NCBI GenBank assembly: GCA_036376135.1
Contig: DASVAW010000155.1
Location: 1-36,403 of the forward strand
Origin: Candidatus Polarisedimenticolaceae bacterium
GTDB lineage: Bacteria; Acidobacteriota; Polarisedimenticolia; Polarisedimenticolales; DASRJG01
DNA length: 36,403 nucleotides
Direction: 5' to 3'
The stretch's first letter is position 1; the number at the start of each line of letters is the position of its first letter. Made by a program: the position numbers and the translations under genes. This document shows positions 23,669 through 32,952 of this stretch, one piece after another. Below the pieces are notes generated by a model. That model saw nothing but the letters and a program-made list of their open reading frames with translations, was not told the DNA's origin and did not search any database.

Positions 23669-23699
23669 AGCGGTTCCCCCGATGCGAGGTTCAAGCCCG

Positions 23700-26600
23700 A
23701 TGCCGGCTCTCAAGACGCTCGTCGACGCCCTCGAGCGCGGCGCGACCGATCGCCCGGACCAGACGCTGTACCGTTTCCTCGACGTGGACGGCCGGGAGCG
23801 CGACCACTACACCTACCTCGCCTTCCACGAACGCACGCGCCACCTTGCCGAGCACCTCCGTCGCGAGGCGAAGCTGCGGCGCGGCGACCGGGTCCTGCTG
23901 GTCTACCCGCCCGGGCTCGAGGTGATCGTCGCCTTCTTCGCCTGCTCGCGGATCGGGGTGATCCCCGTGCCGGTCTACCCCCCGACTCCGATGAACTTCG
24001 AGGCGGGGATGGCGAAACTCGCCTTCATCGCCGAGGACTCGGGGGCCAAGGGGGCTCTGACCACGCGCGGGTTCTACCGCTCGTACCGGCTCCTGCTCGC
24101 CAAGCGCAGGCTCTCCGCGCCGTGGCGCCGCGCGCCGGGGCTTCCCGACCTCGATTGGTGGACGACCGACGACGTCCGCGGGGTGGCGTCGAGCGCGTAC
24201 GTGGACGATCCGGACCGCGTCCTCTTCCTTCAGTACACGTCGGGCTCCACCAGCGACCCGAAGGGCGTCGTCGTGACCCACGAGAACGTCCTCCACAACG
24301 GGTTCGCCACCCTCGACCACGCACCCACGTGCGTGTCGTGGCTCCCGCAGTACCACGACATGGGGCTGATCGGGTACTACCTCTACCCGCTCATCACCGG
24401 CGGGACGACGCACGGGTTTTCGCCGCTGGACTTCCTCAAGAGGCCCGCGTTGTGGCTGCAGACGATCTCGAGCGTCCGGGCGACGTACACGTCGGCGCCG
24501 AACTTCGGGTTCGAGTATTGCCTGCGCGAGGACAAGGTCTCCGAAGAGGAGCTGCGCGACCTGGATCTCTCGTCGCTGCGGGTCCTCATGAACGCCGCCG
24601 AGCCGGTGCGCGCGGAGACCTACACCCGTTTCTTCGAGCGCTTCGCGCCGCACGGCCTGCGCCCCGAGGCGCACGTCGTCGCCTACGGGCTCGCCGAGAA
24701 CACCCTCTGCGTCACCCACCACGGGAAACACATCCTCACCGTCAACAAGCGCGAGCTCCAGCAGCGCAACCTCCACCTCGAGAACGCCCAGGCCCGGAAC
24801 AACAACCAGAGCCGCATCGTCAGCTGCGGCAAGCCGCTCGACGGCGTGCACGTCCGGATCGTGGACCCCGAGTCCCGCCGCGTGAAGGGCGAGCGGAGGA
24901 TCGGCGAGATCTGGATCGCGGGGAAGAGCACGTCCGAGGGGTACTGGAAACGGCCGGAGCTGAGCGAGGAGATCTTCGGCGGGACCCTTCCGGAGGAGAC
25001 CGAGAAGCGGCGGTACCTGCGCACCGGCGACCTCGGGTTCTTCCACGAAGGGGAGCTCTACGTCTGCGGACGCATCAAGGACCTGATCATCATCCGCGGG
25101 GTCAACTACTACCCGCAGGACATCGAGTCGATCGTCGAGGCGACCTCGCCGCGCATCCGTACGGGCGGCGTCGCGGCGTTCGACGTCGACGAGGACGGCG
25201 AGGCGCTGGTCGTGCTCGTCGAGGTGAGGAAGCCCACCGACCTCCCCGACGCCGCGGCGATCGCGCGCGCGATCCGGACGCAGTACTACGTGGAGCCGCA
25301 CACGATCGCGTTCGTCCCTCCCCGCGGGATCTCGAGGACGACCTCCGGCAAGATCGCGCGCAGCCTGACCCGCCGTCGCTGGCTCGACGGGCAGATCGAG
25401 GTGATCGCGCGGCACGTGAGCGCACGGGAGACCGAGCCCGCGGGCGACCTCTCCGGCCTGCGGGAGCGGTTCCAGTACATCGTCGAGCTGTACAACCTGA
25501 CGGGGCGCGAGGAGTTCTCGTTCGCCGAGATCGGGATCGACTCGCTCACCATGGTGCGCCTCATCGAGGACATCAAGGTCCTGCTCGAAGAGCACGGCGC
25601 GGGGGAGCTCGTCCGCCACGTCGACGTGAAGCTGCTGCAGCGGCTGACGGTCGCGGAGTTCTTCTCGCTGCTCGACCAGTTCGAGAAGGCGGCCGACGAG
25701 CCCATCGCCGCCCTGCGCTACGTCCTGAAGAAGGTGCAGGAGGAGCACGAGAGCTACGAGCGGGACTGCATGCGGTCGGACGCCGAGCTGGAGTCCCTCT
25801 CGCGGATCGCGACCCCTTCCGGGTCCGGCGCGGTCACCGACGTGCTGCTCACCGGCGCGACCGGCTTCTTCGGGCCGTTCCTGCTCTCGGGACTGCTCCG
25901 CCTCACGCCGTACACCTACCACGTGCTGACGCGGGCGACCGACCCGATCCACGCCCTCGACCGGATCCGCGCCTCGTTCCGCCGCGCCAGGATCTGGACG
26001 CCGGAGCTCGACCGCGCCCTCGAGGATCGCGTGCACGTCGTCTGCGGCGACATCGCGCGCCACAACCTGGGCCTGAAGTCCGAGCAGTGGAAGGCGCTCT
26101 CGACGCGCGTGCAGGCGATCTGCCACAACGCCGCGCTCGTCAACTACGTGCTGAGCTACGACGCGCTGCGGCCGCACAACGTCGACGGGACCCGCGAGCT
26201 GCTGCGCTTCGCGTGCTCCGGCGCGCCCAAGGCGTTCCACCTCGTCTCGAGCACGTTCATCTTCGGATGGACGGTGAAGGACCTCCTGCTCGAGACGGAC
26301 CGGAACGCCGAGATGGCCAACCTCGACTTCGGCTACGCGCAGAGCAAGTGGGTCGCCGAACAGCTCGTCCACGCCGCAGGCCGCGACGGGCTCGACGTGC
26401 GCGTCTATCGCCCCTCGCTCATCTCGGCCTCGACCGGGGGAGCGGGGAGCCGCGACGACATCGCCGTTCGCCTGCTGGCGTTCATGATCGATCACGGCGT
26501 CGCGGTCAACGCGCGCAACCAGGTGAGCTTCCTCCCGGCGGACGTCGCGGCGGACAACATCGCGGCGATCTTCGCCCGCCCCGGCTCGTGGGGAAAAACC

Positions 26601-26966
26601 TTCCACGTCACCGTGGACGACTACTACACGATGCCCGACGTGACGCGCACGATCACCCGGGACTACGGTCACGCCTTCGCGTATTACGACATCCCGGCCT
26701 TCGTCGCGGAGATGAACCGGCGCGCCACCCGGGAGGACCCGATCTATCCGCTGCTCGACTTCTTCAACCGCTCCCACCCGAAGATCGCCGCGATGCAGCA
26801 CAAGCGTTACGACAACCGGGAGTACCGCGAGGCGCGGGGGCTTGCCGCGGGGAGTCGCCCCGACCCGACGCTCACGGAGACGGTGTCCTATCTGATGACT
26901 TCGCTCGAGCACGAAGGCATGCTCCGGTCGCGGGCGCCGCGGAACGCCACGGGGTCGGGGGGCTGA
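23700..26966 (+). CDS. fatty acyl-AMP ligase - carrier protein - thioester reductase (tri-domain)
   Basis: A protein of about 1088 residues with three parts. (1) A fatty acyl-AMP ligase: YTSGSTSDPKGVVVTH from residue 179, WLPQYHDMGLIG, AYGLAENTL, the FAAL-type IVSCGKP, RTGDLGF, GRIKDLIIIRG. (2) A carrier domain with the phosphopantetheine serine at residue 615 in EIGIDSLTMVRL. (3) An NAD(P)H thioester reductase: LLTGATGFFGPFLL (Rossmann start near 717) and the Tyr879/Lys883 pair in YAQSKWVAE. It should activate a fatty acid as acyl-AMP, load it on its own carrier and release it reductively as an aldehyde or alcohol. ATG 23700 is preferred over ATG 23682 because of GAGG upstream and promoter spacing. 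The selenoprotein gene starts 16 bp after its stop. The fatty-acid chain and final product are unknown. Confidence 0.9.
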   Translation: MPALKTLVDALERGATDRPDQTLYRFLDVDGRERDHYTYLAFHERTRHLAEHLRREAKLRRGDRVLLVYPPGLEVIVAFFACSRIGVIPVPVYPPTPMNFEAGMAKLAFIAEDSGAKGALTTRGFYRSYRLLLAKRRLSAPWRRAPGLPDLDWWTTDDVRGVASSAYVDDPDRVLFLQYTSGSTSDPKGVVVTHENVLHNGFATLDHAPTCVSWLPQYHDMGLIGYYLYPLITGGTTHGFSPLDFLKRPALWLQTISSVRATYTSAPNFGFEYCLREDKVSEEELRDLDLSSLRVLMNAAEPVRAETYTRFFERFAPHGLRPEAHVVAYGLAENTLCVTHHGKHILTVNKRELQQRNLHLENAQARNNNQSRIVSCGKPLDGVHVRIVDPESRRVKGERRIGEIWIAGKSTSEGYWKRPELSEEIFGGTLPEETEKRRYLRTGDLGFFHEGELYVCGRIKDLIIIRGVNYYPQDIESIVEATSPRIRTGGVAAFDVDEDGEALVVLVEVRKPTDLPDAAAIARAIRTQYYVEPHTIAFVPPRGISRTTSGKIARSLTRRRWLDGQIEVIARHVSARETEPAGDLSGLRERFQYIVELYNLTGREEFSFAEIGIDSLTMVRLIEDIKVLLEEHGAGELVRHVDVKLLQRLTVAEFFSLLDQFEKAADEPIAALRYVLKKVQEEHESYERDCMRSDAELESLSRIATPSGSGAVTDVLLTGATGFFGPFLLSGLLRLTPYTYHVLTRATDPIHALDRIRASFRRARIWTPELDRALEDRVHVVCGDIARHNLGLKSEQWKALSTRVQAICHNAALVNYVLSYDALRPHNVDGTRELLRFACSGAPKAFHLVSSTFIFGWTVKDLLLETDRNAEMANLDFGYAQSKWVAEQLVHAAGRDGLDVRVYRPSLISASTGGAGSRDDIAVRLLAFMIDHGVAVNARNQVSFLPADVAADNIAAIFARPGSWGKTFHVTVDDYYTMPDVTRTITRDYGHAFAYYDIPAFVAEMNRRATREDPIYPLLDFFNRSHPKIAAMQHKRYDNREYREARGLAAGSRPDPTLTETVSYLMTSLEHEGMLRSRAPRNATGSGG

Positions 26967-26970
26967 CGCC

Positions 26971-26976
26971 TATACT
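26971..26976 (+). promoter_or_regulatory. TATACT box 6 nt before the selenoprotein start
   Basis: TATACT (one mismatch to TATAAT) lies between the FAAL-reductase stop and GTG 26983, with 6 nt before the start codon. This is the spacing expected for a leaderless transcript. It could give the selenoprotein its own promoter in addition to read-through from upstream. GGGGA next to the GTG is too close to act as a normal RBS. Confidence 0.4.
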
Positions 26977-26982
26977 CGGGGA

Positions 26983-27735
26983 GTGGCGCGCGTCGACGAC
27001 CTCCCGCTCCCCTACCGCCTGTTCGTGCGCACCTACCCGTGGCGGCGCGTCGATCCGGTCCCGTGGGCCGCGCTCTCGAAGCCGCTCGCGTCCTGCCGCG
27101 TCGCCGTCGTCTCCAGCGCCGGCTTCGTCGCGCCGGGACAGGCTCCCTTCGACGACGGCGTGCGCGGCGGCGACTGGAGCTTCCGCGAGATTCCCGCGGA
27201 AACGGACGTCCGCACGCTCGTTTCGCGCCACCGCTCGGAAGCGTGGGACCGTTCGGGGATCGCCCGCGACGCCAACCTCGCGTTCCCGATCGACCGCATG
27301 CGCGAGCTCGCGGCCGAAGGACGCATCGGTTCGATCGCCTCGCGCCACCTGTCGTTCATGGGATCGATCACGGCGCCCGGACGCCTGATTCGCGAGAGTG
27401 CCCCGAAGGGCGCTGCCCTTCTGGTCGCAGACCGGGTCGACGTCGCGCTGCTCGTCCCCGTCTGACCGACCTGCAATCAGACCGTGGGTCTGATCGCCGC
27501 CGAGATCGAGCGCCGCGGAATCGTCACCGTCGCGATCCAGCTCCTGCGGGAGATCGCGGAGAAGGTCCGCCCGCCGCGCGCGTTGTGCGTGCCGTTCGAC
27601 CACGGTTATCCCCTCGGCGCTCCAGGCGACCCGGCGGGGCAACGCGCCGTCCTCGACGCGGCGCTCCGCCTCGCCGAGACGGGCGCGCCGCCTCCGCCGG
27701 TGCTGCGCGACCTCGACTCCCGACAAGCCCGATAA
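26983..27735 (+). CDS. GrdB-family selenoprotein (glycine/sarcosine/betaine reductase B-like), TGA read as Sec161
   Basis: Two frames that would be called separately (26983-27465 and a second one starting around 27484) are one 250-residue gene interrupted by TGA at 27463-27465. Around the TGA the sequence reads LLVPV-U-PTCNQTVGLIAAE, a U161-x-x-C164 redox motif. It agrees with my memory of GrdB/PrdB-like 'selenoprotein B' relatives, where Sec or Cys occupies this site. Downstream, VPFDHGYPLGAPGDPAGQ is another family-like motif. A stem-loop begins 10 nt after the TGA, as a bacterial SECIS should. The protein is much shorter than clostridial GrdB (about 430 residues), so it is a stand-alone relative found in non-fermenters, of unknown substrate, not a glycine reductase subunit proper. 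Start GTG 26983. It follows the FAAL-reductase by 16 bp. Confidence 0.88.
27463..27494 (+). promoter_or_regulatory. in-frame TGA and candidate bacterial SECIS stem-loop
   Basis: TGA at 27463-27465 is followed by ATCAGACC (27476-27483), loop GTG (27484-27486) and GGTCTGAT (27487-27494), a perfect 8-bp stem. The loop starts 18 nt after the TGA, within the roughly 16-37 nt known for bacterial SECIS elements, and its first base is G, as the SelB-binding loop requires. The stem lies inside the coding sequence, as in all bacterial selenoprotein genes. The pairing is seen directly; SelB binding is inferred. Confidence 0.8.
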
Positions 27736-31666: not shown

Positions 31667-31716
31667 GGATGGAGTGTGGCGGGGTGATCCGGGCTCCGCA
31701 AGGGGCGCCCGTCGTC

Positions 31717-31722
31717 GATAAT
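31717..31722 (+). promoter_or_regulatory. GATAAT box 6 nt before the DUF418 start
   Basis: GATAAT differs from TATAAT at one base and is followed by TCGCCG and then GTG 31729. No Shine-Dalgarno is present. Position and spacing suggest a leaderless transcript and support GTG 31729 as the start over the longer frame from 31669. Confidence 0.45.
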
Positions 31723-31728
31723 TCGCCG

Positions 31729-32952
31729 GTGCCCCACCCCTCGCGCCCGCTCGGCCCCGTCAGCGAAGCACGCCGGCTCCACCACGTCGACGCGCTGCGC
31801 GGCTTCGCGCTCCTCGGCGTGATCGTCGGCAACGTCGTGTCGCTCGGATACGAGCAGGTTCCCCCCGCGGTCCTTTCCGCGCTTCCGACCGCGCCGGTCG
31901 ACGCCGTCGTCCTCCCCGCGGTGCAATTCCTCGTCGAGTGGAAGTTCTACACGCTGTTCTCGTTCCTCTTCGGCCTCGGCTTCGCGCTGCAGCTCACGCG
32001 CGCCGAGGAGGCGGGGACGAACGTCCTCCCCGCTTACTCCCGTCGGCTGGGGATTCTCCTCGTCATCGGCGCGCTGCACGCCTGCCTGCTCTGGTACGGC
32101 GACGTCCTGCACGTCTACGCGACGCTCGGGTTCGTGATGATCCTCTTCCGCCGCGCCGGGCCTCGGACGCTCCTGGTGACGGGTCTGCTGCTCGGGATCG
32201 TGCTTCCCGGCGTCGTGACGACCAAGCACGAGCTGGGTCGCCGACCCGCACTCGTCCCGGCGACGGTCGTCGACGCGAAGACCGAGCGCCTACACGCGCT
32301 GACCGCGGGCCCCGCGCCGTACCGCGCCCTCGTCGCCGAGAACGTCGCGCGGAGCGCGGGGTTCTGGCGCTCGCGATTCGCGCGGGAGTTCCTCCCCTCG
32401 GTGCTCGGGAAGTTCCTGCTCGGCTACTGGGTCGGCCGGAGGCGTTTCCTGGAGGATCTCCCCCGCTACCGCCGGGGGTTCGCGCGCCTGCTCGCCGCCG
32501 GGCTCGCGCTCGGAGTTCCCTGCACGGCGTATTGGCTCGCGTCGCGCAGCATGAGCCCCGGCTCCGCGGGGGCGGCCTTCGGGAACCTCGCCCGGCACGT
32601 GGGGATCGCCGGACTCGCCGCCGCGTACCTCTCCGCGCTCCTGCTCCTGCTCGTACGTCCCGCCTGGAGCGCGCGACTGTCCTGGCTCGAGCCGGTGGGA
32701 AAGCTCGCGCTGACGAACTACCTCGCCCACAGCATCGCGATGGCGTTCCTCTTCTACGGCTTCGGGCTCGGTCTGCTCGGCCGGATGGGGCCCGCCGGGT
32801 GCCTCCTCTTCGCGCTGGCGCTCTACGCGGCCCTCGCGGCGTCGAGCCGCGCGTGGCTGGAGCGGTTCCGGTTCGGGCCGGCGGAGTGGATCTGGCGCTC
32901 CCTGACCTATCGCAGGTTCCAGCCGATGCGGCGGACGACTCGATCCGCATAG
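31729..32952 (+). CDS. DUF418 multi-helix membrane protein (YeiB-like)
   Basis: A protein of 407 residues with about 9-10 membrane helices. HHVDALRGFALLGVIVGN is the N-terminal signature of the DUF418/heparan N-acetyltransferase-like group. FYTLFSFLFGLGFALQL, GDVLHVYATLGFVMI, VGKLALTNYLAHS and a C-terminal FGPAEWIWRSLTYRRFQPM complete the DUF418 pattern. Relatives may acylate extracellular substrates, but no activity is proven. GTG 31729 is chosen because the family starts close to its R-x-x-x-D-x-L-R-G motif and a -10-like box sits 6 nt upstream. The frame is open back to ATG 31669, which would add 20 unlikely residues. Confidence 0.85.
   Translation: MPHPSRPLGPVSEARRLHHVDALRGFALLGVIVGNVVSLGYEQVPPAVLSALPTAPVDAVVLPAVQFLVEWKFYTLFSFLFGLGFALQLTRAEEAGTNVLPAYSRRLGILLVIGALHACLLWYGDVLHVYATLGFVMILFRRAGPRTLLVTGLLLGIVLPGVVTTKHELGRRPALVPATVVDAKTERLHALTAGPAPYRALVAENVARSAGFWRSRFAREFLPSVLGKFLLGYWVGRRRFLEDLPRYRRGFARLLAAGLALGVPCTAYWLASRSMSPGSAGAAFGNLARHVGIAGLAAAYLSALLLLLVRPAWSARLSWLEPVGKLALTNYLAHSIAMAFLFYGFGLGLLGRMGPAGCLLFALALYAALAASSRAWLERFRFGPAEWIWRSLTYRRFQPMRRTTRSA

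Follow-up and report, generated by a model that had tools for sequence, protein, structure and literature searches.

Does the TGA triplet at positions 27463-27465 of this contig end a broken gene, or does it specify selenocysteine (Sec) within an intact one? The window, i.e. the whole stretch of 36,403 nucleotides that was analysed, contains on its forward strand one frame extending from a GTG start at 26983 to a TAA stop at 27733-27735. With the TGA read as Sec, this frame (26983-27735) specifies 250 residues, and the translation around the codon is LLVPV-U-PTCNQTVGLIAA, in which Sec is residue 161 and opens a UxxC motif (U161-P-T-C164). Mechanical ORF finding broke the gene into 26983-27465 and 27484-27735, just as a preliminary description had expected of an automatic annotator. 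That description had noted coding sequence in the same frame on both sides of the TGA as well as a SECIS-like hairpin behind it, and had proposed a GrdB-family selenoprotein of 250 residues. In the G+C-rich DNA of the window, where long chance ORFs are found everywhere, an open frame is weak evidence.

The hairpin is located at 27476-27494 on the forward strand and consists of an 8-bp stem (27476-27483 and 27487-27494, ATCAGACC/GGTCTGAT) with a GTG loop; the stem starts 10 nt and the loop 18 nt after the TGA. Published criteria for bacterial SECIS elements comprise a loop of 3-9 nt at a distance of 16-37 nt from the UGA, a stem of 4-16 bp, a G within the first two loop positions, and a minimum free energy of at most -7.5 (PMC13188914). 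With a distance of 18 nt, a GUG loop of 3 nt, 8 bp, and -13.6 kcal/mol over 43 nt, the hairpin lies within all of these limits. Fold energy was dropped as stand-alone evidence, since 17 of 200 shuffled sequences folded equally well (z of -1.5, not significant), and a search of the window against Rfam returned nothing at gathering thresholds. As the fold energy was ordinary and open frames arise easily in G+C-rich DNA, both were tested by comparison.

A single scan of GTDB genomes yielded 80 loci with homologues. In the column of residue 161, TGA was found at 80 of 81 aligned places and TGT, specifying Cys, at the remaining one. The records of the TGA-containing homologues are named as Acidobacteria, Verrucomicrobia, Desulfobacterales/Deltaproteobacteria, Myxococcales, Nitrospirae, Planctomycetota, Chloroflexi, and others. 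Several of the rows nearest to the present gene bear the name Acidobacteriota, which makes its organism probably an acidobacterium. Within the close subfamily, defined by about 49% identity or more, TGA was present at every place read; this subfamily was detected in 24 of the 247 genomes sampled from the phylum and occurs in many other phyla as well. When the set was widened to include distant homologues from the same phylum, the column contained Sec 118 times, Cys 12 times, Ser six times, and Asp and Glu twice each, plus one gap. The expectation that Sec or Cys should align at this residue was thereby confirmed, Cys being found in a few distant homologues also. The second residue of the motif, Cys164, showed no variation across an alignment of 29 rows, and exceptions outside this alignment are rare (Ser in L046).

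Some of the homologues deserve separate mention. In some distant homologues of the same phylum (among L123-L141), the Sec column is occupied by Ser, Asp, or Glu, which suggests loss of the redox residue in these branches, so that part of the wider family may work without one at this position. At L028:1437-2159, TGA stands at the Cys of UxxC too, and a third TGA follows further downstream; this sequence may be that of a UxxU variant containing errors, or the gene may be decaying. Two copies of PrdB-like selenoprotein genes per contig are present in L088 and L097, less than 1 kb apart in the latter.

The region downstream of the TGA was compared as RNA. Among 85 distinct sequences, pairing holds at nearly all cells of the stem. 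Covariation was evaluated by counting parsimony changes on a protein tree made without the SECIS region, with positions numbered from the U of UGA; the hypergeometric test applied weighs all branches equally, and the resulting P values are approximate. Coincident changes numbered 12 for pair 15-31 (P 1e-9), 11 for pair 19-27 (P 5e-9), nine for pair 21-24 (P 9e-7), and four for pair 18-28 (P 1e-4), and these four rank at the top among all pairs of the aligned region, pairs of near neighbours (7-9, 34-35) aside. Among the covarying positions are wobble bases of codons for Asn/His, Thr/Ala/Ser, Val, and Gly/Ser/Cys. Since the protein stays the same there, it is the RNA that appears to be under selection at these bases. 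The analysis thus provides a clean comparative description of a SECIS element in a coding region, and together with the published criteria it bears out the hairpin proposed earlier.

The apex of the element may differ slightly from the predicted fold. Pair 21-24, which is either C-G or G-C depending on the lineage, encloses a GU dinucleotide. The pair 21-25 of the minimum-energy fold was rejected, because it is paired in only 40% of the sequences and shows one co-change; 21-24 was preferred for the same reason. These data favour a GU loop closed by pair 27483-27486 rather than a GTG loop of three nucleotides. In the E. coli element, G23 and U24 of the apical loop are fixed bases, and G23 is a binding site of SelB (review PMC8659212).

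A Sec codon should be accompanied by the machinery to decode it. The genome to which the window belongs (4.38 Mb, 97.6% complete) harbors a tRNA-Sec with anticodon TCA (71.9 bits), SelB on the same contig (C167) as this tRNA, SelA (507 bits), and SelD (L018:1369-2307), the latter being itself a Sec-type gene with an in-frame TGA (CAG-TGA-ASK). All four of selA, selB, selC (tRNA-Sec), and selD, whose presence had been predicted, were therefore found. Of the 247 genomes of the phylum, 45 contain TGA-type homologues, and tRNA-Sec was detected at a strict threshold in 43 of these versus 108 of the 202 others (Fisher P 9e-9). Of the two exceptions, one has a tRNA-Sec at 50.5 bits, and the other is a genome of 81% completeness. 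UGA 27463 would be translated through by the normal bacterial Sec pathway, in which SelB with Sec-tRNA(UCA) would recognise the in-frame SECIS hairpin and insert Sec161, a course of events favoured by the comparative genomics.

A mutated or misread Cys or Trp codon could in principle produce the same picture, and the window is a contig of 36 kb from a draft genome of 179 contigs, in which a pseudogene or an assembly error might be encountered. Against such an origin, TGA occupies the same codon at 80 places in independent genome records, and a covarying hairpin is found 3' of this conserved TGA. The conservation at the homologous column refutes the pseudogene or assembly error, to which we assign practically no probability. 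TGA conservation at 80 of 81 homologous places and tree-based covariation of base pairs place the Sec reading far above chance; on the same evidence the flanking of the TGA by coding sequence in one frame and the selenoprotein of 250 residues held up as first described.

The family assignment of the preliminary description stood, with refinements. Membership in Pfam GRDB (PF07355) was found at 37.5 bits with a gathering cut-off of 22, but the closest curated model is PrdB (TIGR04483, E 3e-35, residues 27-230), and the protein falls below the curated cut-offs for both types. For PrdB, 121.8 bits were obtained versus a cut-off of 300, and the GrdB-type models TIGR01917, TIGR01918, NF040794, and NF040795 gave 40.3 to 54.9 bits versus cut-offs of 65 to 800. 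Sec at a C-terminal UxxC is shared with selenoprotein B of glycine, sarcosine, and betaine reductases (PF07355), but the protein, with 250 residues, matches only the C-terminal half of profiles of 431-435 residues, and the GrdB motif is UxxCxxC (PMC13188914) rather than UxxC. With PrdB of D-proline reductase it has Sec in UxxC in common; unlike this enzyme, it is specified by a genome in which no pyruvoyl subunit was detected. PrdA (TIGR04480) was not found in this 97.6%-complete draft by a search in which no control genome gave a signal either, and the 247 genomes of the phylum were therefore screened for the pyruvoyl-subunit family, PF09338. It is absent from the 97.6%-complete draft itself and from 246 of the 247 genomes, being present only in G132, where it adjoins a GrdB-like hit. 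D-proline reductase is established to require a pyruvoyl subunit (Kabisch 1999, as cited in PMC1088965). The protein thus most likely works without one, and as the partner was not found, the substrate chemistry of GrdB and PrdB is not transferable to it.

An identity as PrdB of D-proline reductase, or as GrdB of glycine, betaine, or sarcosine reductase, would agree with the top curated match, with the Pfam score, and with the literature, which files such sequences as PrdB. In view of the curated scores and the missing PrdA and PF09338, it is nonetheless highly improbable. That 26983-27735 is a Sec-encoding gene with a stand-alone PrdB-like identity is, as judged from the sequence comparisons, close to certain.

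Genes of this kind have been encountered before. Selenoproteins named PrdB and containing UxxC were reported as abundant, with 42 Sec genes from the Sargasso Sea metagenome in 2005 (PMC1088965) and with 235 Sec genes from the GOS metagenome in 2008, where the table lists UxxC and Pfam07355 (PMC2398784), and in both marine data sets Sec genes outnumber Cys forms. The present protein resembles these 'proline reductase PrdB' sequences in UxxC and Pfam07355; the likeness is one of description rather than of alignment, and from it we infer that the subfamily is the same. The present gene adds one more member to the Sec 'PrdB' kind already described. The name proline reductase ought not to be transferred to its product, and a widespread selenoprotein family carries the name of an enzyme that its members almost certainly are not.

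A confident AlphaFold model of the protein (pLDDT 95.1) revealed an alpha/beta fold in which Cys164 opens a helix comprising residues 164-177. The start of a helix is the usual site of a redox-active pair. Searches of the PDB by sequence, with the single sequence and with a profile, gave no believable relative, and a fold search of the PDB with Foldseek gave nothing at E of 0.001 or below. VIA fold matches (Z up to 9.1, microcystinase C) were set aside, since this value is near the range that alpha/beta folds commonly reach. The product would be a stand-alone PrdB-like alpha/beta protein devoid of a pyruvoyl subunit, and Sec161 and Cys164 at the helix start would most likely act as a thiol-type (selenenylsulfide) reductase of a small oxidised substrate. 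A role as Sec/Cys reductase, deduced from the motif alone, and not as D-proline or glycine reductase, appears probable.

The gene has no neighbour that recurs at most loci, the largest neighbour cluster being ABC ATPases in 11 of 80. In 8 of 100 loci, drawn from several phyla (L031, L036, L059, L066, L079, L086, L090, and L104), ArsS or the glycosyltransferases TIGR04282/TIGR04283, families to which NCBI gives the arsenosugar label, were found within about 6 kb of the gene; a rough estimate gives about 0.3 such loci by chance (about 9 kb per genome of some 4.5 Mb). These genes abut the selenoprotein gene or are near it in L059, L066, L079, L090, and L104, and in L066 the end of the selenoprotein match and the frame of the glycosyltransferase overlap. 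Co-occurrence extends beyond the effect of tRNA-Sec: among tRNA-Sec-positive genomes, TIGR04283 is present in 16 of 23 with the close subfamily versus 44 of 129 others (P 0.0016) and ArsS in 12 of 23 versus 20 of 129 (P 0.0003), P values that ignore relatedness and are optimistic for these related genomes.

A narrower form of the reductase role could be derived from these data, in which the PrdB-like selenoprotein would serve arsenic or arsenosugar metabolism, e.g. by reducing pentavalent organoarsenicals. Such a neighbour is missing from 92 of the 100 loci, no match to ArsS, TIGR04282, or TIGR04283 was obtained in the window, and ArsS above the cut-off is missing from 12 of the 24 genomes that contain the close subfamily. 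In the genome studied here, ArsS is located on a separate contig (C146), and TIGR04283 was detected only below the cut-off. Involvement of the protein in arsenic metabolism is rather unlikely, and it is with similar reserve that stand-alone PrdB-like selenoproteins may be regarded as an enzyme family of their own that acts together with the arsenosugar pathway of ArsS. If this were true, it would define a selenium-dependent step in organoarsenic metabolism. No literature on an arsenosugar link to a PrdB-like selenoprotein was found in the collection of papers searched, and the lead appears to be new. The absent pyruvoyl partner and the recurring arsenosugar neighbours provide a testable direction for the function of the PrdB-like family.

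In the window itself, the selenoprotein gene is preceded by a frame for an AMP-binding/NAD_binding_4 protein of 1094 residues (23682-26966), of the carboxylic acid or thioester reductase type, which ends 16 nt upstream. A consensus scan for sigma-70 sites found none; TATACT at 26971-26976 on the forward strand, 6 nt upstream of the GTG, is a candidate -10 element, from which the transcript would possibly be leaderless. The frame after the selenoprotein gene contains a MopE-type metal-binding motif, and a protein with a DUF418 domain is encoded at 31669-32952.
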